Source: a virus
Direction: 5' to 3' (one strand)
DNA: 43,093 bases
Virus record (IMG/VR): IMGVR_UViG_3300017971_000122
Location: 1-43,093 of that record
Shown here piece by piece: positions 9,916 to 30,124 of this stretch (position 1 is the first letter of the stretch; each line of letters starts with the position of its first letter). Under the pieces are notes generated by a model. The model was not told the origin of the DNA. It ran no database searches and saw nothing but the letters and a program-made list of their open reading frames with translations. Position numbers and translations under genes: made by a program.

Positions 9916-12192
9916 TTATAGCTCACAATTTATTATTGCGTAGCCATAGAAATACGCTTCATTATAGTCTGTGTTAGCATAGTCAGCCACCCTTATACCC
10001 ACATAGTCGTCAGGAGTTCCTATGCCAGGCCTCAGCATAAAAGTATTAGGAGCTGTACTGGGAAATCCACGAACTACTCTAGAAGAGGTAGTAACTACAG
10101 CACTAGCCGTATACCTCATATTAATTTTAAATGTAGTCTCTGCCATATAGTATACGCCACTTATAGAAGAGCCACTATAGTTATAGTTTACTTTCTGATA
10201 ATACCTCTCACACAGTGTCATTTCTTCTTGTATAGATCTTGACGAAAACGGTACTGCGCTAGATCCTCGTACTAACACAGGTTCAGATACAGTACGTGAA
10301 CTGGCATCCGCTGTAAATTCGACAGTAACATTAGAACCACCGGATACTACGAAGGTATACGGAGATGTTTGATCTGCTCCTCCATCAACAGAAGCTATAG
10401 CATCGCCTTCCCATGATAGGGTATACGTGCCAGCAGGAATATTAATAGCTTCAATGACTTGCTCTACAGAGTCATTAGGAGGGAGGGTTAATATACCATT
10501 GGCCCAAACAGCAGCTACGTTAGCTACAGCGGTACGCCACCTGTCTAGGAAATAAGAACCGGCAGAGGCTATATTTGTACCGCTACTTATAGCCCTTTGA
10601 TTGATGTAAAATCCAGGATTGATGAGTATATTATTGTTATACCCTGACATCGAGTCTACGTAAGCTTTGTTAGCAGCTTTGTTATCAGCGTCAGGAGGAC
10701 CAGCCACCCAAATGTTCTGTACCAAGAAAGATGAGGAGCCTATGTCGTAGGAGTCATCTAAGTTTGGTATAAGGTGTCCACTACTATTAAGGCCCCATCT
10801 AGCGATGCTGTCTGTACCGAAGACTATGGCATTAGCAGTCGCATTTGTGATATACATTATACCGTTTTCAGTGACTACATAAAAGTTAGACCCATCATGC
10901 TTTATGTAGGCGTCTTGATCAGTGCCAAATACAATCTGCCCGCTGTCCCCCATAAAGATATTACGGATAGTAGTAGTAAGCTCACCTATATCGTATGAGT
11001 CCCCGGCTTGCGGCAAGAAGTGACCATCTGAACTTACAGCCCATCTTAATAGGTTATTAGTAGCAAGGTACAACGCCTCTGTATCAATAGTTCCCAAGGT
11101 CAGTGCGCCTACAGAGGAACGAATATACCAGTCAGAGCCGTCATGGAGGATATAAGCATCCTGATCCGTACCAAAATAAAGGTTCTCGCTATCGGGAACT
11201 GTAGTTTCGTGCAGGACGGTAGAATAAATATCTTCAACCGGCACGGCTGCCGTACCTATATTCTGGCCGCCAAGAATGGGAGCCACATTGTTTAGAGCTA
11301 TCCAAGCACCTACTGCATTAACGTATATAAGATCGACGCTAGTTCCTTTGGCAAGGATAATACTACCAGAATCAATCCATATGGGTTTAGCGTCAAGAGC
11401 ACTCAAGGTTAGAGCGTAATCTGAAAGATTATAAATGCCCACTCTGAATAAGTCTGTAGTGGCACCCATAACAGGCAAATCGAACTGAGAATCAGTGACA
11501 GCAGTACTCCCAAGTATAAAGAAATTACCGCGTTCAGAAGGTAAGATTTCATAGTCCGTTGTCTTAACACTAGTAGCATAATAATCTGAAGCAATAGCAC
11601 GCCAATAAGAAGTGCTTTCATCAGGCTGATTTCCTGTATTAAGCGACATCAAAGAGGTATATAAATTGCCATCATAATGAACGGCACTATCTACTTCGTA
11701 TGTTACGTTAATATTCCATACCTGCAAGAACTCAATCTCTTCCCAGGATGAGGTCTCTACAGCCGGGTTAAGATTAAAGTTCGTGTTGACCAGAGATCTA
11801 TATACCTTATTATTGTAGGATACTATATCCCCAACGTCATAGGTATCAGAAGCGCTCCAGCTGACTAACCCTGCTCCGCCCCCTCCACTTCCGGCATCAC
11901 CAGCTGCAGTAACAGGATCAAATACTTGAATCTGTTCGCCTAAATCAGATTCATCTTCTAAGTTTCTAGTATAAGAAACTACACGGTAGCTTCCTTCTCC
12001 AAAAACACTGGGGCAACGACCGGCAGCGTCTAACTGAAGCGGGTTCTCATTGACTGTCTGAAGATTCTCATCATAATAGGTGTCTTTTAAAGTGTTATTG
12101 GTATTAGACTCCAAAAACTCAAGCCACCCATTAACAAGAGGCTCACCATCGTCATCAAAAAACTGTGCAAATGCCTCAATTAGTCTACCCAT
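9916..12192 (-). CDS. Receptor-binding tail fibre with carbohydrate-binding repeats, 758 aa
   Basis: Residues 1 to about 95 form a virion-anchoring domain nearly shared with the protein at 14538 (FFDDDGEPLVNGWLEF, NPLQLDAAGRCP, IQVFDPVTA). Two segments resembling carbohydrate-binding module 5/12 follow (WSASDTYDVGDIVSYNNKVY and a second with W and Y at like spacing). Then come two copies of a repeat of about 70 residues built around FGTDQDAYIxHDGSxFY and ending SYDIG. The C-terminal 220 residues (NILINPGFYINQR onward) match the whole of the protein at 13788 and the C-terminus of the one at 14538. This layout of anchor, sugar-binding modules, shaft and receptor tip indicates a host-binding fibre. 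Confidence 0.88.
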   Translation of the reverse strand: MGRLIEAFAQFFDDDGEPLVNGWLEFLESNTNNTLKDTYYDENLQTVNENPLQLDAAGRCPSVFGEGSYRVVSYTRNLEDESDLGEQIQVFDPVTAAGDAGSGGGGAGLVSWSASDTYDVGDIVSYNNKVYRSLVNTNFNLNPAVETSSWEEIEFLQVWNINVTYEVDSAVHYDGNLYTSLMSLNTGNQPDESTSYWRAIASDYYATSVKTTDYEILPSERGNFFILGSTAVTDSQFDLPVMGATTDLFRVGIYNLSDYALTLSALDAKPIWIDSGSIILAKGTSVDLIYVNAVGAWIALNNVAPILGGQNIGTAAVPVEDIYSTVLHETTVPDSENLYFGTDQDAYILHDGSDWYIRSSVGALTLGTIDTEALYLATNNLLRWAVSSDGHFLPQAGDSYDIGELTTTIRNIFMGDSGQIVFGTDQDAYIKHDGSNFYVVTENGIMYITNATANAIVFGTDSIARWGLNSSGHLIPNLDDSYDIGSSSFLVQNIWVAGPPDADNKAANKAYVDSMSGYNNNILINPGFYINQRAISSGTNIASAGSYFLDRWRTAVANVAAVWANGILTLPPNDSVEQVIEAINIPAGTYTLSWEGDAIASVDGGADQTSPYTFVVSGGSNVTVEFTADASSRTVSEPVLVRGSSAVPFSSRSIQEEMTLCERYYQKVNYNYSGSSISGVYYMAETTFKINMRYTASAVVTTSSRVVRGFPSTAPNTFMLRPGIGTPDDYVGIRVADYANTDYNEAYFYGYAIINCEL

Positions 12193-13787: not shown

Positions 13788-14525
13788 TTAAAGTTCTGCA
13801 TCAAAGTCAAATTCTCCTCCGTATACCCTATACTGATCTGCGCTTGATACCTCGACACGCATAGCATAGCCCTCGTTAGTACTAATTATGTTGTCTAGTA
13901 TACATTGAGTATACGTAGGAGCAACTGCTATAGTTGTCGCCGGATCTGTACGCATTGTAACAGGAAATTGGCCGGATTGGCCTACACAGTTGACAAATGC
14001 GGAATCCATATATCTATATCCATAGCCATTACGGCCACCAAGCATACGGAGGAAATACCGCTGACATAGTATAAGCTCATAGCTATACTGTCTACGAATG
14101 AAAGGAAGTGGAAAATCACCAGGAACAAGCATAGGCTGTTGCAGAGTGCCTGGACCAAACTCAATCTCAACGTCAGTACCAGAAGAAACAGTGAAAGAAT
14201 GCGGCGAGCTTTGATCAGCGCCTCCGTCAATAGATAACTGAGCAGTACCTTCCCACGATATCGTATAGTCACCATTAGGGATATTCACATCCTCAACTAT
14301 CTGCTTTATAGCATCTCCTGCTGCAATAGTAAGTATGTCACCTGAAAGAGTAGGAGCCGTATTAGCTATAGCGGCACACCATCGGTCCATAGCATAATCG
14401 CCTACGGCCACTAAATTACCACCGGACGCCCACTCTCTCTGATTAATATCAAACTGAGGATTAATCAGAATATTACCGCGGTCTAAGATGTGACCTATAT
14501 CACCTAATACTCTCGCTTCTGTCAT
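13788..14525 (-). CDS. Stand-alone receptor-binding module, paralogue of fibre C-termini, 245 aa
   Basis: From residue 17 on, the protein aligns with the C-terminal domains of the fibres at 9916 and 14538: NILINPQFDINQR, DYAMDRW, DGGADQSSPHSF, then LCQRYF and an end in xDAEL. It lacks the anchor, sugar-binding modules and shaft. It has its own ATG with AGGAGAG, so it is a real gene rather than debris. It may be an alternative tip, a decoy, or a spare cassette for recombination into the fibre genes. The beta-sandwich appearance is inferred from the alternating hydrophobic pattern. Confidence 0.85.
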   Translation of the reverse strand: MTEARVLGDIGHILDRGNILINPQFDINQREWASGGNLVAVGDYAMDRWCAAIANTAPTLSGDILTIAAGDAIKQIVEDVNIPNGDYTISWEGTAQLSIDGGADQSSPHSFTVSSGTDVEIEFGPGTLQQPMLVPGDFPLPFIRRQYSYELILCQRYFLRMLGGRNGYGYRYMDSAFVNCVGQSGQFPVTMRTDPATTIAVAPTYTQCILDNIISTNEGYAMRVEVSSADQYRVYGGEFDFDAEL

Positions 14526-14537
14526 TTGGCTCTCCTA

Positions 14538-17354
14538 TTATAGTTCAGCATCAGCAGTGAATGATACGCCAAAGCTTGAAGCCCCAGTAGATGCTGTAGT
14601 AGCTTCAATCGCCCATCGAAAGCCTTCATCGGTCGCATAGTTAACTACTACATCCGTTTCATCCTGCCCATTAAAGCCGGCACCTGCCTCAGATGATCCC
14701 GTTATTACGACGGTAGCAGAGGTACGCATACGTACCGGATATACGGTGCCGTCATAATATGTCTGACCAACTTCAGTCTTGCCAGTAGACAGTCTTATAG
14801 GCTGGTCTGAGGCCATAACTATGTAATATCGCATACACAGGGCAAGTTCTTCAGCTGCCTTTCTTCTGTAAAACGGTGCTGCGTAGGAACCCGCCACTAG
14901 CATAGGCTGCTCTAGCGTACCAGCTTCCCAGTATACTGTGATATTCCCACCAGCATGAACAAATGTATAAGGAGAAGTCTCCCCACCAAGAGCCTCTGCC
15001 GTACCCTCCCATGACAGAGTATACGTACCAGCCTGTGCGCTTTCTACAATTTGACCAACCGCATCGCCGGCAGGAATAGTAAGCACGCCAGAGGACCACG
15101 AAGGTGCTGAATTAGCATTAGCAGCATACCATCTATCAAGGAAATAATCCTTAAAATTTGGAAGATTTGCGCCACTTACAGCACCACGCTGATTGATACT
15201 AAACTCAGGATTGATTAATAAGTTATCCCTTGGAACAGCATCTACGTACTGCTTAGTGGCCGCGCCTAAATCCGCTGTAGGATCGCCAGATAAGACTAAC
15301 AGGCCTGTCATAGTATCGCCTGTTTTATCAACAGCATCTGTGATAGGAAAGTCATCAATGGTGATAATGGTTACTTCATCACCCGCATTAGCAGCCGTAG
15401 TAAGAGTAACCACAGTACCAGAGAAAGTATAGTCTGTAGTACTCCACAGGAGGACACCATTGAAAAATACTAATTCCGTAGCTACTGTCTTTGAATGTGT
15501 AAATGCGGTTTGACCTGCTGTAGCAGTATGCTTTGAAATAGTCCTTGAACCTGCACCAATGTTTCCTACAGCAGTGTCAATTCCTGATAGATGCTGATCT
15601 ATCAGCTTTGTTTCGCCAACATCCAGAGAATAATTAGTAGGAGTCCACGTAGGATCTACATAAGTCTTATTGGCAGCATGGGCGCCTAACGTAGGAGCAT
15701 TACCCAAAAATGCGTAAGCTACTTTGTGCGTAGAGTCACCAATATCGTACGAATTGTCAGCAAAAGGCACAAAGTTACCGGCAGCTTCAATCACCCACCG
15801 TTCAACAGCAGTAGAGAAAAACCGTATATTATTCGCACCAGAAGTACCTAAAATAAAAGTACCAGTTCCCGTAGATATATAAAAGTCAGAGCCATCATGT
15901 CTTACGTACCCGTCTTGATCTGATCCAAGATATATCAAGCCCGAATCACCTACGTAAATATGCCTTACTTCGTAAGCCGTAGTACCAATATCGAAAGAGT
16001 TAGCAATACCCGGAAACAGAACTCCGGCAGAAGTTACTGTCCATCCGTTGAGGATAAGGTCCACAGACGGCTCAATAATCATATTACCACTAGTTGTAGT
16101 AATATAAAAATCGCTTCCGTCGAATACTAAGTTAGCGTCCTGATCTGTACCAAGAGAATGCACAGCACCGTCAACTTGGTACAAACTCGCTATAGGGCTT
16201 AAAGCTTCGCCGATGCTGTAAGGAGAGGCAGGTATGATATCACCGGTTGCGTTTATGCTCCATCTCGTAGAAGAATCTACTATAAGATTAATAGCCGAGG
16301 CCGAGGAATTCCCTATGTTTAAAACACCGGTGCCATTTAAGATCCAAAAGTCAGTCCCGTCATGGTTTATAGAAGCGTCTTGGTCAGTGCCAAAGAAATG
16401 ACTCTTACTATCTCCTTGGTATAGATTACCGATATGCAGCAAGGTACTGCCTATGTCATACTCAGCGGCAGGAACCAATACACCCGCAGCTGTAAGACTC
16501 CATTTAGTAGCACCACTTGTAGCTAAGTTAATAGCAGATGCGCCAGAAGTTCCTATAGTAACTTGTCCAGCAGACCACAAAAAGAAAGAAGTACCGTTAT
16601 GATAGATAGAGGCATCTTGGCTGTCTCCTAAGTAGATAATACCTGAGTCTTGCAGGTACACATTACCTATCATATTTGAGGGAGCGCCTAAGTTATATCC
16701 GGTAAACAACGGTTGAAAAGTTGTACCAGACTCTTCCCAATTCAGTAAGATAGTACCTGAGGCAGTAGGTTCCCACTCAGCAGGTGATACATCGGGGGTA
16801 TTGTTAAGATTGCCATTTACCTTAGAGAAATATAACTGAGAATCGTATATCGCTATATCGTCCTCAGCGTACGTAACATACTGGTTCCAGAAGCGTAAAA
16901 ACTCTATCTGCTGCCAATGGTCGGGGTTTATGTCTGGCACATTCCCTACATTAGCGGAGGTAACAGACTCATAGAAATTATCATCGTAAAAGACGATATA
17001 TCCTACATTATATACTACAGTAGAAATCCATTCAGCAAAGTATCCCTCTGCGCCCGGAAGTACATCTTCTGCTGTCACGGGATCAAAAACTTGAAGCTGA
17101 GTACCTGGTAATCCTGTAACAGGATTATGCTCATACAGAACTATTCTATAAATACCTTGCCCGAATACATCAGGGCACCTGCCTGCCGCGTCGAGTTGAA
17201 GAGGATTAGCATTGAGGATAGTTTGATCGGCATCGTTGAAAGTATTCTTATCTGAATTGTTGGTATCTGAGATAAGAAACCTTAACCAGCCATTTTCTAG
17301 CGGGTCACCAGCGTCATCAAAAAATTGCGAGAATGCAGGAAGTACTCTTGACAT
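14538..17354 (-). CDS. Large receptor-binding tail fibre, 938 aa
   Basis: The N-terminal anchor (residues 1-105: FFDDAGDPLENGWLRF, LQLDAAGRCPDVFG) is paralogous to the 9916 fibre. Two carbohydrate-binding-like segments follow (VGYIVFYDDNFYESV and AEDDIAIYDSQLYFS). Then come four shaft repeats with FGTDQDA..NHDG..FW and xYDIG (about 215-575), an AGDEVTI-containing segment near 600-670, a GDTMTGLLVL linker near 675, and the shared tip from NLLINPEFSINQR to the end. It is the longest gene in the window. Relative to the 758-aa paralogue it has two more shaft repeats and an extra linker. It probably binds surface polysaccharide. Confidence 0.88.
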   Translation of the reverse strand: MSRVLPAFSQFFDDAGDPLENGWLRFLISDTNNSDKNTFNDADQTILNANPLQLDAAGRCPDVFGQGIYRIVLYEHNPVTGLPGTQLQVFDPVTAEDVLPGAEGYFAEWISTVVYNVGYIVFYDDNFYESVTSANVGNVPDINPDHWQQIEFLRFWNQYVTYAEDDIAIYDSQLYFSKVNGNLNNTPDVSPAEWEPTASGTILLNWEESGTTFQPLFTGYNLGAPSNMIGNVYLQDSGIIYLGDSQDASIYHNGTSFFLWSAGQVTIGTSGASAINLATSGATKWSLTAAGVLVPAAEYDIGSTLLHIGNLYQGDSKSHFFGTDQDASINHDGTDFWILNGTGVLNIGNSSASAINLIVDSSTRWSINATGDIIPASPYSIGEALSPIASLYQVDGAVHSLGTDQDANLVFDGSDFYITTTSGNMIIEPSVDLILNGWTVTSAGVLFPGIANSFDIGTTAYEVRHIYVGDSGLIYLGSDQDGYVRHDGSDFYISTGTGTFILGTSGANNIRFFSTAVERWVIEAAGNFVPFADNSYDIGDSTHKVAYAFLGNAPTLGAHAANKTYVDPTWTPTNYSLDVGETKLIDQHLSGIDTAVGNIGAGSRTISKHTATAGQTAFTHSKTVATELVFFNGVLLWSTTDYTFSGTVVTLTTAANAGDEVTIITIDDFPITDAVDKTGDTMTGLLVLSGDPTADLGAATKQYVDAVPRDNLLINPEFSINQRGAVSGANLPNFKDYFLDRWYAANANSAPSWSSGVLTIPAGDAVGQIVESAQAGTYTLSWEGTAEALGGETSPYTFVHAGGNITVYWEAGTLEQPMLVAGSYAAPFYRRKAAEELALCMRYYIVMASDQPIRLSTGKTEVGQTYYDGTVYPVRMRTSATVVITGSSEAGAGFNGQDETDVVVNYATDEGFRWAIEATTASTGASSFGVSFTADAEL

Positions 17355-20246: not shown

Positions 20247-22094
20247 TTATCTAGACATTCCGGTATTCATTACTAAGTCAGTAGTTGGGTTCCCAGCAGG
20301 CGCCCACGTAGATGGAGTCGGATTTACAGCAGCTGCTCTGTTTGCGAGAGTATAAGCGGCTATATTACCAACGTCCTGCGCGGTCTGCCCTAAAGTTGCG
20401 GCAGACTGAGCTTGACCAGCTGCAAGAGCTGAGCCTCCGGCAGCAGTAAGATTAGCCACCTGGCTACCAGACTGAGTAGCCAAGTTAGCGAGAATTTGAG
20501 CAATATTTTGCTGGCCCGATAACTGATTCGCTGCACCAACCTGTCCTAAGTTCGCTATATCAGCAAGACCACCAGAGTACGCAGCAGCCTGAGCTCCGCC
20601 AAGTTGCGCAAGAGTACCTGCTTGCGCAGCTCCAATGGCTTGTTCTAGCGCTGCCAAAGAAAGCCCTGTCTGGTTAGCCAACTCAGACTTCTGTTGCGCC
20701 GTCAACTGAGTAAGATTTGCTCCTCTGACGCCAAGAGCTTCAGCTAACTGCGCAAGCTGAGCAGCAGCGCCTTGCTGGATCGCTGCTGACTGCGTACCCG
20801 CCGACTGAACGATACTAGCTCCAGTCGTATCCGCTGTCTGTCCACGAACTGCTAAGTCTCTTAAGTTTGTCAAATACTGTTGCTGCTGTGTAGACGCTAT
20901 GCCGAAAGCTTGTTCCTGTAGAGCCGTACGTACTCGGCCACCGCCTAAGCCGCCTATGGCAGCCTGGTTCCTCAACAGCGCCTGCTCTTGCTGTTCTCTA
21001 AGGTACTGCTGACCAGGAGACTCAATAAAAGAGTTAATAGCTTGCTGCTGTGCTTCAGGACCAAGAGCACCAGAAAGCGCAGCTTCCATATCAAGAGCAG
21101 ATCTTCCGGCCTCAGAATAAGGCTGAATACGTCCTAAAGCTTCTCCTTTGGCACCGGCAATAGTTGATAGAGCATCCTCTCTTCCACCTATAACATCTGC
21201 TCTAGCCTGCCCTGTACCAGCCGCAAGCTGAGCAAGACTTCTTTGCTCACCAGTTGTCAGCTGTTGCATAGCGCCGTAAAAGCCTGTTCCTGCGGCAGGG
21301 TCAGCGGTGGCCGCAGGAACAAACTCACCAGCCGCATTCTGCACCATATTAATTGCGTCAGGAGCTTCGGTAGTAGGGCTTTGATAAGGCACTTCGGTAC
21401 GCGGCGGCGCAGTTTGATCCCCATACAGTACCTGATCTAGGGTATCAAGTACAGCAGGAGCCATAGCTAGCTGAGCTATAGGAGAGCTTTCATTCCTGAA
21501 TCCCTGAGTACCGGCAGCATATCTTTCACCGAAAGGACTGGGATACTGGGGCCCAGGAGCTGCAGGGTCTGCCCCATATGTAGTTCCAGTAGTATCAGGT
21601 ACTGTAGACGCTACAGTAGAAGGAGTGCCCATAGATTGTAACGTCTGAGCAGCCTGGGGAAAAGCTTGCTGAATAGCCTGATTCTGCTGCGCGGGAGGTA
21701 AACTCTGAATTTGCTGATACTGCTGAGTAAATTCAGTACGAGGAACACCAGAAGCACTTGCAGCCGACCCCAAAAGAGCTTGCTTAGCATTAGCGCCAGA
21801 CTGAGTAAGTACCTGCATAGCATTCTGAGTAGAATCACTCAAAATTTGCATTACATCTACTGTACCATCAGCGACATAGCTCTGTAAGTTATCAATTTCT
21901 CTGCCATAATCAGCTAAAGCAGGAGTCATGCGGTCAAGAATCTCAGCTCTCGCTTTCTGAGTCTCTGCAATTATAGCATCGCTTGCTTCTTTAGTAGCTC
22001 TGGCTGATGTCTTAGCTGCATCTTTGGAACCTTTAGCAGAAATCATCCCGCCAACTACTGCCCCGCCTACTGCTGCCGTTATAGCTCCGGACAT
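20247..22094 (-). CDS. DNA ejection protein candidate, Ala/Gln-rich, 615 aa
   Basis: The N-terminus (AITAAVGGAVVGGMISAKGS) is a glycine-rich hydrophobic helix, as in many phage internal virion proteins. The body is very rich in Ala, Gln and Ser and contains YLREQQEQALLRNQAAIGGLG at about 370-390, a patch typical of podovirus injection proteins. The C-terminal part repeats helices of the SAAxxQxGxA kind. It is the first of three adjacent ejection genes. The start ATG 22094 has AAAGAGGTG. The product is expected inside the capsid before infection. I cannot say which of gp7, gp16 or gp20 it replaces. Confidence 0.78.
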   Translation of the reverse strand: MSGAITAAVGGAVVGGMISAKGSKDAAKTSARATKEASDAIIAETQKARAEILDRMTPALADYGREIDNLQSYVADGTVDVMQILSDSTQNAMQVLTQSGANAKQALLGSAASASGVPRTEFTQQYQQIQSLPPAQQNQAIQQAFPQAAQTLQSMGTPSTVASTVPDTTGTTYGADPAAPGPQYPSPFGERYAAGTQGFRNESSPIAQLAMAPAVLDTLDQVLYGDQTAPPRTEVPYQSPTTEAPDAINMVQNAAGEFVPAATADPAAGTGFYGAMQQLTTGEQRSLAQLAAGTGQARADVIGGREDALSTIAGAKGEALGRIQPYSEAGRSALDMEAALSGALGPEAQQQAINSFIESPGQQYLREQQEQALLRNQAAIGGLGGGRVRTALQEQAFGIASTQQQQYLTNLRDLAVRGQTADTTGASIVQSAGTQSAAIQQGAAAQLAQLAEALGVRGANLTQLTAQQKSELANQTGLSLAALEQAIGAAQAGTLAQLGGAQAAAYSGGLADIANLGQVGAANQLSGQQNIAQILANLATQSGSQVANLTAAGGSALAAGQAQSAATLGQTAQDVGNIAAYTLANRAAAVNPTPSTWAPAGNPTTDLVMNTGMSR

Positions 22095-22095
22095 A

Positions 22096-22971
22096 TTACA
22101 CCTCTTTAGGCCTAAATTGTATAGACTCTCGGTAGTCTATCGTTATCTCATCACCAATAATACCGCCTTGATTGCCACGAATCGGCTTTCTAGCTAGCAG
22201 ATGTAAGTCGCCATTAATATCAACTAACTTAGCATTTGGTTTACCACTGTGGTTAGTATATCTACCTGCAGGAGTTCTGAAAATTCCAACTCTTGCTGGA
22301 GCAATATAATCACCAGAAGCAAAAGACGCTGTTGCAAAAAGTCCTTTTCCTTCTATTGGTGACGGGAATACTGCTATAGCGTACATGCCATCAGGAAAAG
22401 GTACCAGATCACCGGCATACTCTGATTCTTTTCTGATCTGCGCCTCAGTAAAGCCAGTCTCTTTGAGAAAGCTTTCATAATCTTCGCGTTCAGCAGAACA
22501 ACGGTTTAACTTACCAAGATTTGCAAGCTCCTCTTTTGTCCATTGATCACTTTTATCAAAGAACATATCTTCTAGTGTAGCAATATCGGTTTCATCGGTA
22601 GGAAAGACATTAAGCCAAACCATGTCTTCTTCTACATACCCTATCTTTCTACCAGGTTCGCCAGTAAATATCATAGGAGCTTCTACTCTTCTTACCTCGC
22701 CATCTATGACTATAGTAACTGCGCCTTTAAGAAAGATATTAAGGTGTTTATGCTTCAGCTTATACCCAACTAATACAGTATCAGCAGGCACATTAAGCTG
22801 TCGTACATAAAGACCTGGGCTGAAAAAATGGTACGTAGGACAGTCTACTTGATCCTGCTTTTTTACTAAGTCAACGAATTCACGCACTTTCTCAGCAGTA
22901 GTAAGATCTTTAAATATATCTTTTAATTGAACTAGACTATCCAATAGCCACCCATCCTTTCGATCTATCAC
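22096..22971 (-). CDS. Cupin-SET domain fusion, putative protein-lysine methyltransferase
   Basis: Residues 45-125 have cupin-like strands with KLKHKHLNIFLKG near 71-83 (H74 and H76 as possible metal ligands) and FTGEPGRKIGY. Residues 197-283 form a SET-like domain: EGKGLFA at 207-213, NHSGKPNA at 240-247 (the NHS knot motif) and GDEITIDY at 273-280 (the GEEI.IDY motif). SET domains transfer methyl groups from S-adenosylmethionine to lysine. The frame opens with GTG at 22971, but TTG 22944 overlapping the previous stop has a better-spaced AAAGGA and may be the true start (282 aa). It lies in the virion operon between tail and ejection genes, so a virion or host protein may be the substrate. 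Confidence 0.8.
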   Translation of the reverse strand: MIDRKDGWLLDSLVQLKDIFKDLTTAEKVREFVDLVKKQDQVDCPTYHFFSPGLYVRQLNVPADTVLVGYKLKHKHLNIFLKGAVTIVIDGEVRRVEAPMIFTGEPGRKIGYVEEDMVWLNVFPTDETDIATLEDMFFDKSDQWTKEELANLGKLNRCSAEREDYESFLKETGFTEAQIRKESEYAGDLVPFPDGMYAIAVFPSPIEGKGLFATASFASGDYIAPARVGIFRTPAGRYTNHSGKPNAKLVDINGDLHLLARKPIRGNQGGIIGDEITIDYRESIQFRPKEV

Positions 22972-23932: not shown

Positions 23933-25390
23933 TTAAGAAAAACCTACTTCCAATTTAACTACTACAGGTTTAACAGGATCAGACAAGCGGAATCTAGTAG
24001 TCGCAAATCGCGGTACTCTGCCATTTTTACGCCATATAGTTCTTTGCCCGTATTTTCCAGGTTTTCCTATGCGTCTGCTGCGCTCATAATCAAAAGTAAA
24101 ATTATTCTCTGATATTGCCATAGAAACTCTTGGATCTGAGCATAATGAGTTCCCAATGCCAGGTTCCATAGTCAATTCTATAAGTGGAACCCGGAAGGAA
24201 TTGCCTATACTTGCCATAGGCTGAGTAGAAAAAACCCTTACAATATTATTAGAATATTCTTGATAGACGCTATCGTCCAATCTACCAATTCTACCATCTT
24301 GACTATCCCCAACCAAAGTATAGCCATAAGCAGTAACGAGAGAATTAACCCTCCAGCGAGTTTGTTGTAAGTCACCATTCGAATCCGGTATACCTGATTG
24401 TTGAACATGCCAGAATCCAGTAGTTATATTATAGATAAAAGCCGTTGTAGTAAATACGAATGCTACATAAAACTGGCCTTTTTGACCCCAAGCAAGAGAG
24501 AACGCTGCTTCTATAGTCTCCTCAGAATAATCGTGTAATGCGCTATCAATGGCTATGGTAGATATTTTAGAAAAAGCACCTTGATAAAACATCCAGATAG
24601 CGGCACGCTCATTCTTTCCACCGCCTATCATAAAGAAGCGTTCATTAGTGGCGATTAACGACGCGGGAGCGTAGCACCCTTTATCATAGAACTGGTTTCC
24701 TCTTTGGAATGGGAAGCCAGAACCACCTATATTCTGAAAAGTTTCAGTTGTCTCAGACCCAGTAAGATAAATAAGGTTTTTATATACTATTGGCGCGACG
24801 ACTGGATCAGGATCCGACTCAGCAGAACTAAAATCAAGAGCATCCCAAGCAGTACCGTCATTAAGACTTGAAACAATCCATTTCTTGGAGTCTGTAGAGC
24901 AAGCAAAATAGCCATCAATAAATACAACATACTGAGGATTGCCGTTAGCAGTAAAATCAGCATCAGTTATCTGTACAAGGCCTCCAGCTACGGTATAAAT
25001 ATAGCCATTTCCACCAGGTACGAGTATCATTAACTGCGTGCCATTATCAGCTATAGATACGCGGCCAGTTCCTGCAACAGTACCAAGGGAGGTCGCTGTC
25101 CAAACTTCTTCGCCCAAGACAACAGATACGTTCAGCCTATATAGGGTGGTACCATTTACAAAGTAAGCTATGCCGCCCATATCCCATGATCCGCGATTGG
25201 CATCCGCAGAAAGTTCTCCAGTAGTAGTTAAAAGCTCTATCCCTTGAGAACCTATGAGAGCTATGTCAGTTAAGGCTGGATACTCAATTTTTATCGGTAT
25301 CCAATTGACGCACTCTTGATGCGAAATAGGCAAAGAATCTAGAGTATAAAATCCATTGCTAAGAGGAACTTTTTGTCTTTCAAATGGCAT
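23933..25390 (-). CDS. P22 gp10-like tail hub / DNA stabilisation protein
   Basis: The 485-residue protein has the features of P22 gp10 (472 residues), the packaged-DNA stabilisation and tail hub protein. It starts MPFERQKVPLSNGFY with SISHQECVNWIPI, followed by repeated beta-propeller-like strands (IAYFVNGTTLYRLN, TLVGDSQDGRIGRLD), and ends with a VVVKLEVGF strand. In P22, gp10 hexamers bind below gp4 and close the portal. The start ATG overlaps the stop of the upstream gene (TAATG). Order after the gp4 homologue supports the call, although an extra beta-helix protein is inserted between the two. Confidence 0.88.
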   Translation of the reverse strand: MPFERQKVPLSNGFYTLDSLPISHQECVNWIPIKIEYPALTDIALIGSQGIELLTTTGELSADANRGSWDMGGIAYFVNGTTLYRLNVSVVLGEEVWTATSLGTVAGTGRVSIADNGTQLMILVPGGNGYIYTVAGGLVQITDADFTANGNPQYVVFIDGYFACSTDSKKWIVSSLNDGTAWDALDFSSAESDPDPVVAPIVYKNLIYLTGSETTETFQNIGGSGFPFQRGNQFYDKGCYAPASLIATNERFFMIGGGKNERAAIWMFYQGAFSKISTIAIDSALHDYSEETIEAAFSLAWGQKGQFYVAFVFTTTAFIYNITTGFWHVQQSGIPDSNGDLQQTRWRVNSLVTAYGYTLVGDSQDGRIGRLDDSVYQEYSNNIVRVFSTQPMASIGNSFRVPLIELTMEPGIGNSLCSDPRVSMAISENNFTFDYERSRRIGKPGKYGQRTIWRKNGRVPRFATTRFRLSDPVKPVVVKLEVGFS

Positions 25391-29124: not shown

Positions 29125-30081
29125 CTATTCAAAAGTTACCCCGTCAAGGTATGGATCCTTGCCTTTCCCGGGCTTTCCATCCGGGATTTCTAAAGGATCC
29201 GGAGTATCAGAAACGGCAGGTTTATACTCCTTAGCTTTAGGCAAAACCTCTGATACCAAGAAAGCGACAGAGTTTATACTGTCTAAATTTGCCATTTTTT
29301 CCAAAGTAGAAATATTCTTGCCGAGGTGATTAACGATCAGAGCTGAGTCATTGTGCCCGAGGATAAATCGTGCAACAGCCGGATCTTTAATAAACATAGA
29401 TACCGTCTGATCAGCTTGGCTCATTGTCTCTTCTGAGATTCCAAGCTTTTTGGCGGTAGCCTGCATTTGTTTGATCTGGCTATCGACTAACTCGCGCTGA
29501 GCCTTTTGCTTAGCCGCTACGGCCTCGCGGGCCTGCTGCTGCTTAAGCTCAACTGCCGCATCTGCCTTTGCTTTCGCCTGGATGGCATTGTCCCTTTCTG
29601 TTAACTTGGCCGAGTATTCAGGGTCATAAACATCAGGCATAGGCGGAATTTCGATTACAGCCTCGCCCTCAAGCTCTTTTAGACGCTTAAGGACTTTTTG
29701 GTGCTCAGTTTCAAGCTCTTCTCGCTTTCTCCGTTCTTCATACTTTTCGAAGGTTAATTTGTTAATTCTGTTGTTGACCTTTTCCTGGTTAATAAGATCG
29801 GCCGTCTGGTCTGCAGCAGGATCGGTGGCAGGATCAGCGGCAGGATCAGTGGCAGGATCAGTGGCAGGATCAGTGGCAGGATCAGCCGCAGGATCCGTAG
29901 CCGGGTTGGCGGCAGGATCGGCGGTAGGATCGGCCAGGTCATCTTCATCCCCATCATCATAAACCGTGGTGTCCTGGTTTTCAGCCCCAGTAGGCGTATC
30001 CTGGTTTTCAGCCCCAGTAGGCGTATCCTGGTTTTCAGCCCCAGTAGGCTTCTGATTGTTAGCTGAATCTTGCAGTCCCAT
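29125..30081 (-). CDS. Scaffold protein with tandem repeats, 318 aa
   Basis: The protein lies between portal and coat, the scaffold position. The start is ATG 30081 (AAAGGA 7 bases upstream). The N-terminal 90 residues hold three copies of PTGAENQDT and about ten D-P-A-[AT] units (DNA repeats 29814-29936 and 29974-30049). The middle is a long charged coiled coil (EERRKREELETEHQKVLKRL), and the C-terminus is basic Pro/Gly-rich. P22 scaffold (303 residues) is likewise helical and acidic. The scaffold should drive procapsid assembly and exit before DNA packaging. Length variation in the repeats is possible. Confidence 0.88.
   Translation of the reverse strand: MGLQDSANNQKPTGAENQDTPTGAENQDTPTGAENQDTTVYDDGDEDDLADPTADPAANPATDPAADPATDPATDPATDPAADPATDPAADQTADLINQEKVNNRINKLTFEKYEERRKREELETEHQKVLKRLKELEGEAVIEIPPMPDVYDPEYSAKLTERDNAIQAKAKADAAVELKQQQAREAVAAKQKAQRELVDSQIKQMQATAKKLGISEETMSQADQTVSMFIKDPAVARFILGHNDSALIVNHLGKNISTLEKMANLDSINSVAFLVSEVLPKAKEYKPAVSDTPDPLEIPDGKPGKGKDPYLDGVTFE
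29814..29936. repeat. 12-bp tandem repeats in scaffold gene
   Basis: About ten imperfect copies of GGCAGGATCAGT encode the repeated Asp-Pro-Ala-Thr/Ala units of the scaffold. The period of 12 bp keeps the frame, so gain or loss of units changes only the length of the linker. Confidence 0.85.
29974..30049. repeat. 27-bp tandem repeats in scaffold gene
   Basis: Two exact 27-bp copies (29974-30000, 30001-30027) and a third that diverges at its end encode PTGAENQDT three times. The unit is a multiple of three, so copy-number changes preserve the frame. Confidence 0.9.
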
Positions 30082-30124
30082 AGCCAAGTCCTTTCGTTAA
30101 GTGCCTGGAATACCTCCAGTAGGG

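Follow-up and report, generated by a model that had tools for sequence, protein, structure and literature searches.

The closest structurally characterized counterparts of the protein described here are the SET methyltransferases of Pfam family PF00856, namely the SET domain of MLL1 and vSET from the chlorella virus PBCV-1, with which it shares a GxG loop, an R-x-x-NHxxxPN motif, a tyrosine within an ELT/IxDY sequence, and a common fold over 79 residues. Full-length homologues with both a cupin and a SET domain, such as gp30 of Rhodoferax phage P26218 and the proteins of phage zth2-2 and Pseudoalteromonas phage PH1, constitute PHROG 34170, the function of which is listed as unknown. A homologous cupin without the SET domain is encoded in the same genomic slot in podoviruses, examples being Bbp23 of BPP-1 and the proteins of VvAW1 and BA3 (PHROGs 12032 and 24280); in these the metal-ligand pattern varies. 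T7 gp13 (PF11090) and P22 gp14 (PF11039) share the operon position but are not homologous to the window protein. The T7 gp13 protein is required for the incorporation of other proteins into the virion. A search combining cupin, SET, and phage yielded no paper. The enzyme superfamily of the cupin-SET protein is known, but the papers searched do not describe it in such a setting, nor do they describe SET methylation in the assembly of bacterial viruses.

The window, namely the whole stretch of 43,093 nucleotides analysed (IMG/VR record IMGVR_UViG_3300017971_000122), carries on its minus strand, in this order, genes for terminase, portal, scaffold, capsid, small proteins, the nozzle Hc3, two small proteins, the cupin-SET protein, a DNA ejection protein, two large proteins, and the fibres. 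Coordinates are provided in Table 1. The open reading frame of the original prediction lies where it had been placed, with the signatures EGKGLFA, NHSGKPNA, and GDEITIDY all present, and its position between tail and ejection genes is confirmed by the Hc3 nozzle upstream and the ejection protein immediately following. Residues 1-10 of the longest reading frame are poorly modelled (low pLDDT), and thus the internal TTG codon is the probable start of the gene. An AAAGGA sequence stands 5' of this codon at the usual distance. The end of the preceding 89-residue gene overlaps the cupin-SET reading frame by 35 bases if counted from the GTG codon and by a few bases if counted from the TTG.

Table 1 Positions in the window of the cupin-SET gene, its domains and motifs, and its neighbours.
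Feature	Positions	Strand	Basis or remark
Cupin-SET coding sequence	22096..22971	minus	291 codons from GTG 22971; likelier TTG 22944, giving 282 residues
Small gene before cupin-SET, 89 residues	22937..23206	minus	Reading-frame list and weak PHROG matches
Cupin (RmlC-like jelly roll), residues 41-125	22597..22851	minus	AlphaFold2 model, PDB fold matches, PHROGs 12032 and 24280, homology to BPP-1 Bbp23
Helical segment, residues 157-190	22402..22503	minus	Accompanies SET in reversed and split relatives
Compact SET domain, residues 192-285	22117..22398	minus	Profile, fold matches, conservation in 69 sequences
GxG motif G208-K209-G210, AdoMet loop	22342..22350	minus	Both glycines 69/69
NHS motif N240-H241-S242	22246..22254	minus	N 69/69, H 68/69
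Catalytic-type Tyr280 of ITIDY	22132..22134	minus	69/69; aligns with DY of MLL1 motif IV
DNA ejection protein, 615 residues, candidate substrate	20247..22094	minus	phrog_598; next gene after cupin-SET
Tail nozzle/head-closure Hc3 (P22 gp10-like)	23933..25390	minus	phrog_578, E 1.8e-98; upstream in operon

An AlphaFold2 model of the window protein, based on an alignment of 69 family members, displays a mean pLDDT of 91.2 and a pTM of 0.87. The regions that match solved structures are residues 41-125, which correspond to cupins, and residues ~192-285, which correspond to SET domains, as had been anticipated for the two halves of the protein. The SET domain of MLL1 (7u5v) superimposes onto the model with a Z-score of 10.7 and an rmsd of 1.9 over 79 residues at 33% identity, and PBCV-1 vSET (3kma) with a Z-score of 9.7. 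EZH2 and SETD8 are also among the fold matches. The fold alignment spans both halves of the SET domain, and the modelled C-terminal half is a member of this fold.

The search with the Pfam SET model gave a divided answer. Taken singly, the window sequence scores 19.7 bits against a cut-off of 22.4, whereas a profile of 15 relatives searched against the PDB retrieves the MLL1 SET domain with an E-value of 2e-10 and PBCV-1 vSET with an E-value of 1.8e-5. The cut-off for PF00856 is exceeded by relatives at five loci, designated L107 (27.0 bits), L108 (34.9), L348 (43.0), L359 (40.7), and L369 (42.2); family members encoded as separate SET genes reach 40-43 bits, far over the threshold. In the profile alignment of the window protein with MLL1, SPIEGKGLFA is paired with SPIHGRGLFC, RYTNHSGKPNA with RFINHSCEPNC, and GDEITIDY with GEELTYDY. 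Fourteen columns are invariant among the 69 relatives, which excludes a chance likeness; those in the SET half include S204, G208, G210, T233, R237, N240, P245, E275, and Y280. The residues of the AdoMet site, i.e. the GxG loop and the NH motif with its nearly invariant histidine (H241 in 68 of 69 proteins), are accompanied throughout the family by the catalytic-type tyrosine of motif IV, as an active SET enzyme of the kind originally proposed would have them. Judging from the model and these residues, the cupin-SET protein is likely to be an active methyltransferase. PADLOC and NCBIfam gave no match for it.

There are several differences from MLL1 and vSET. The window protein is encoded in a phage late operon, has a very short SET-I, and lacks the C-terminal post-SET cysteines. 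Between the two matched blocks, from GxG to NHS, MLL1 contains ~38 residues and the family profile ~5 positions, so the SET-I substrate platform is nearly missing. The phage family is further distinguished by its fusion to a cupin, by a ~6-residue GC[x]GG insert before motif IV, and by isoleucine or valine at the Phe/Tyr switch. Indeed, with a single exception, the 69 proteins carry Ile, Val, or Thr at the equivalent of this switch (I278 in the window protein), which suggests a roomy lysine pocket.

Relatives of the window protein are encoded in at least 406 IMG/VR stretches, and the isolates or complete genomes that carry them include three Manatee Spring records in addition to Rhodoferax phage P26218, phage zth2-2, and Pseudoalteromonas phage PH1. 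The view that such a fusion is unusual holds only in part, for the protein belongs to a large, widespread phage family, one member of which was already annotated after the structure of the PBCV-1 SET methyltransferase. A fusion with the cupin first was observed in 105 of the 118 open reading frames of the first set. The order is reversed at four loci (L013, L014, L376, and L382), and the domains reside on overlapping or adjacent genes elsewhere, with SET preceding the cupin in L359 and L363 and following it in L108. In L348 three genes separate the two, and in L107 and L369 there is a SET domain but no cupin; L107 also lacks an ejection neighbour. A helical segment ahead of the SET core accompanies it in every arrangement. 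Given these reversed, split, and cupin-less forms, the SET module is mobile and yet usually tied to this cupin. Their repeated pairing in several architectures is classic evidence for, and argues for, a joint function. Independent origins of the cupin-SET arrangement were considered and set aside: the best cupin tree, which is weak, implies four changes, but a single SET clade is not rejected (AU p 0.64). The SET gene of L107 (L107:7998-8555) and the cupin and SET genes of L108 (L108:7213-8660) lie on bacterial chromosome contigs next to phage-like replication or integrase-type genes, and are apparently prophage remnants.

Of 67 non-redundant SET loci, 52 have a gene matching PHROG 598 ("DNA ejection") directly downstream. 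Cupin-only homologues occupy the same slot in P22-like phages, Zobellviridae, and T7-like phages, where they are usually followed by a gene of the P22 gp7 or T7 gp14 family, exceptions being BPP-1 and Alteromonas H4/4. The equivalent position, before the first ejection gene, is held in T7 by gene 13 and in P22 by gene 14 (between the nozzle/needle and the first ejection protein). The cupin-SET gene of the window thus has the operon position of gp13 and gp14 and specifies a product with neither a GNAT-type fold nor homology to them. The AlphaFold model of T7 gp13 (pLDDT 94) has a GNAT fold: the best 50 Foldseek rows are all acetyltransferases, VIA-align gives GNAT matches with Z-scores up to 12.1, and RimI/RimL-type N-alpha acetyltransferases are among the many GNATs that the model resembles. 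Note that T7 gene 13 (L128:1308-1721) bears the Pfam label of a probable scaffold protein (PF11090).

Other occupants of the slot differ again. In BPP-1 (bbp24) and Acinetobacter phage MD-2021a the gene next to the cupin encodes a GNAT recognised by Pfam. These two cases are best regarded as anecdotes since a GNAT is found in only 1 of 44 upstream neighbours surveyed, and a GNAT beside the cupin is not a general rule. In L369 a DUF6445 gene, to judge from its sequence possibly encoding an oxygenase-type jelly roll, replaces the cupin before SET, and an ejection gene follows. This DUF6445 gene (L369:3243-3992) falls into phrog_1644, "minor coat protein". Directly upstream of the split SET/cupin pair of L359 is a gene (L359:2941-4011) that scores 26.4 bits against PF18760, an ADP-ribosyltransferase of polyvalent proteins with a cut-off of 31.2; it may possibly encode another protein-modifying enzyme. 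With cupins, cupin-SET proteins, the GNAT-fold T7 gp13, and the GNATs of BPP-1 and MD-2021a there, the slot holds factors of differing folds, and several of its occupants have the predicted fold of a protein-modifying enzyme. By extension, the slot from the nozzle to the first ejection protein might be one for modification, in which interchangeable enzymes (the GNAT-fold gp13, a cupin-linked SET, SET with DUF6445, or GNAT with cupin) would act on the N-terminal region of the next ejection protein and would be needed for the loading or delivery of the ejection machine. This broader proposal is speculative and, on balance, improbable.

The explanation that we favour, and to which we give close to an even chance, is that the cupin-SET gene is expressed late and specifies a two-domain assembly factor. 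Its cupin half, the only one present at this slot in most related podoviruses, would most likely dock on an ejection or tail-assembly protein. Its SET half would most likely use AdoMet to methylate a virion protein on lysine (or another amine), and the DNA ejection protein of the next gene is the best candidate. The modification would precede or accompany packaging inside the infected cell, and could assist the ejection proteins in folding, loading, or later crossing the envelope. Considered separately, a service to virion assembly is slightly better than an even proposition, and modification of the ejection protein, a likelier target than any other, somewhat less than one. Counting against the favoured explanation are the lysine results given below for the ejection proteins, the lineage dependence of their N-terminal difference, the rarity of a GNAT upstream of the cupin, the L107 locus, a SET-I much shorter than that of MLL1, and the fact that the majority of phages need nothing beyond the cupin.

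Alternatively, the substrate of the SET half might be of host origin, namely a nucleoid or ribosomal protein, RNA polymerase, or an envelope protein; the enzyme would then either be synthesized late or enter the cell together with the ejection proteins. Effectors and histone methylases are among the SET enzymes already known, which lends this some weight. Phage modification enzymes can also strike host targets, as illustrated by the GNAT-like Gp38 of fHe-Kpn01, a non-virion protein that is toxic to E. coli (PMC7291057). The gene is located, however, within a late virion operon and stays next to the ejection gene even in divergent phages, and the same slot houses virion-assembly factors in T7 and P22. 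A host target is, in our judgment, unlikely.

If the ejection protein is the target, its lysines do not reveal the site. When the downstream ejection proteins were aligned over their N-terminal 220 residues, none of the lysine positions proved to be conserved, and there was no lysine enrichment in the ejection proteins of SET phages as compared with those of cupin-only phages. The ejection protein of the window contains eight lysines in all, five of which lie within residues 21-47. The extreme N-terminus differs between the groups: the SET phages have Gly, Ser, or Ala at residue 3, with Trp in 1 of 97, whereas 72 of 87 cupin-only phages have Trp there. Judging from this difference, the N-terminus could be the modified part. 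In the SET-phage proteins it reads MSG[VI]ATA, with Ser2 in 74 of 80 and Ala7 in 75 of 80. The Trp3 contrast tracks lineage, however, as the SET and cupin-only groups are largely two lineages with too few independent contrasts, and shared ancestry may explain the difference. An active enzyme with a target other than lysine could be envisaged, either by alpha-N-methylation of this conserved N-terminus, in which no lysine is conserved, or by histidine methylation. The SET histidine methylase SETD3 provides a precedent (PMC8537074), and the likeness of T7 gp13 to N-alpha acetyltransferases is in keeping with the former. Yet lysine is the usual residue modified by SET enzymes, membrane insertion can be the reason why an N-terminal glycine zipper is conserved, and lineage confounds the N-terminal contrast, such that we hold a non-lysine target to be rather unlikely.

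The names attached to PHROGs 12032 and 24280, "short tail fiber" and "tail fiber adhesin", would make the protein a tail or fibre component with a non-catalytic SET appendage. No experiment was found behind these names, and a PDB search of virion structures revealed no convincing chain of the cupin-only family, of T7 gp13, or of P22 gp14. In addition, 69 divergent proteins all share the motif residues of a SET active site, and the SET domain is also found as a separate gene. A structural role of this type is quite unlikely.

The cupin half of the model superimposes onto HP0902 (5j4g) with a Z-score of 10.1, and its jelly-roll fold also matches DddK and ectoine synthase. The canonical metal ligands of cupins (HxH...E, H) are not retained: at the positions in question the family has H70 in 62, Q72 in 51, and H76 in 63 of the 69 proteins. 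In contrast to its PHROG 34170 relatives, the window protein has lost both His70 and His/Gln72, with Tyr70 and Leu72 in their stead, and thus its metal site looks broken and metal-dependent catalysis by this cupin is unlikely. That the cupin is itself an oxygenase-like jelly-roll enzyme, with the two domains modifying one substrate in sequence, is very improbable, for although L369 has its possible oxygenase-type DUF6445 protein in place of the cupin and His70 and His76 are kept in most members, the canonical second histidine is Gln in the majority of the family and the window protein carries the two substitutions just described.

A late, virion-directed methyltransferase, should the favoured reading be correct, would mean an additional step in phage maturation. 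It would also account for a large PHROG whose function is unknown, and would offer a testable role for the operon position, long without explanation, that gene 13 has in T7 and gene 14 in P22. Were the broader slot proposal true, virion maturation would include a general step that has gone unrecognised, with SET methylation as one of its forms. The compact SET domain is, in addition, a natural minimal methyltransferase for enzymology.

Two other features of the window deserve mention. The consecutive minus-strand fibre genes at 9916-12192, 13788-14525, and 14538-17354 have a paralogous C-terminal domain in common at 40-47% identity. N-terminal and repeat regions are shared as well by the larger pair (9916-12192 and 14538-17354); the three are a duplicated set. 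The gene in the scaffold position (29125-30087, minus strand) has a TTG start, and the N-terminal third of its product contains strong TPTGAENQD and DPATDPA repeats.
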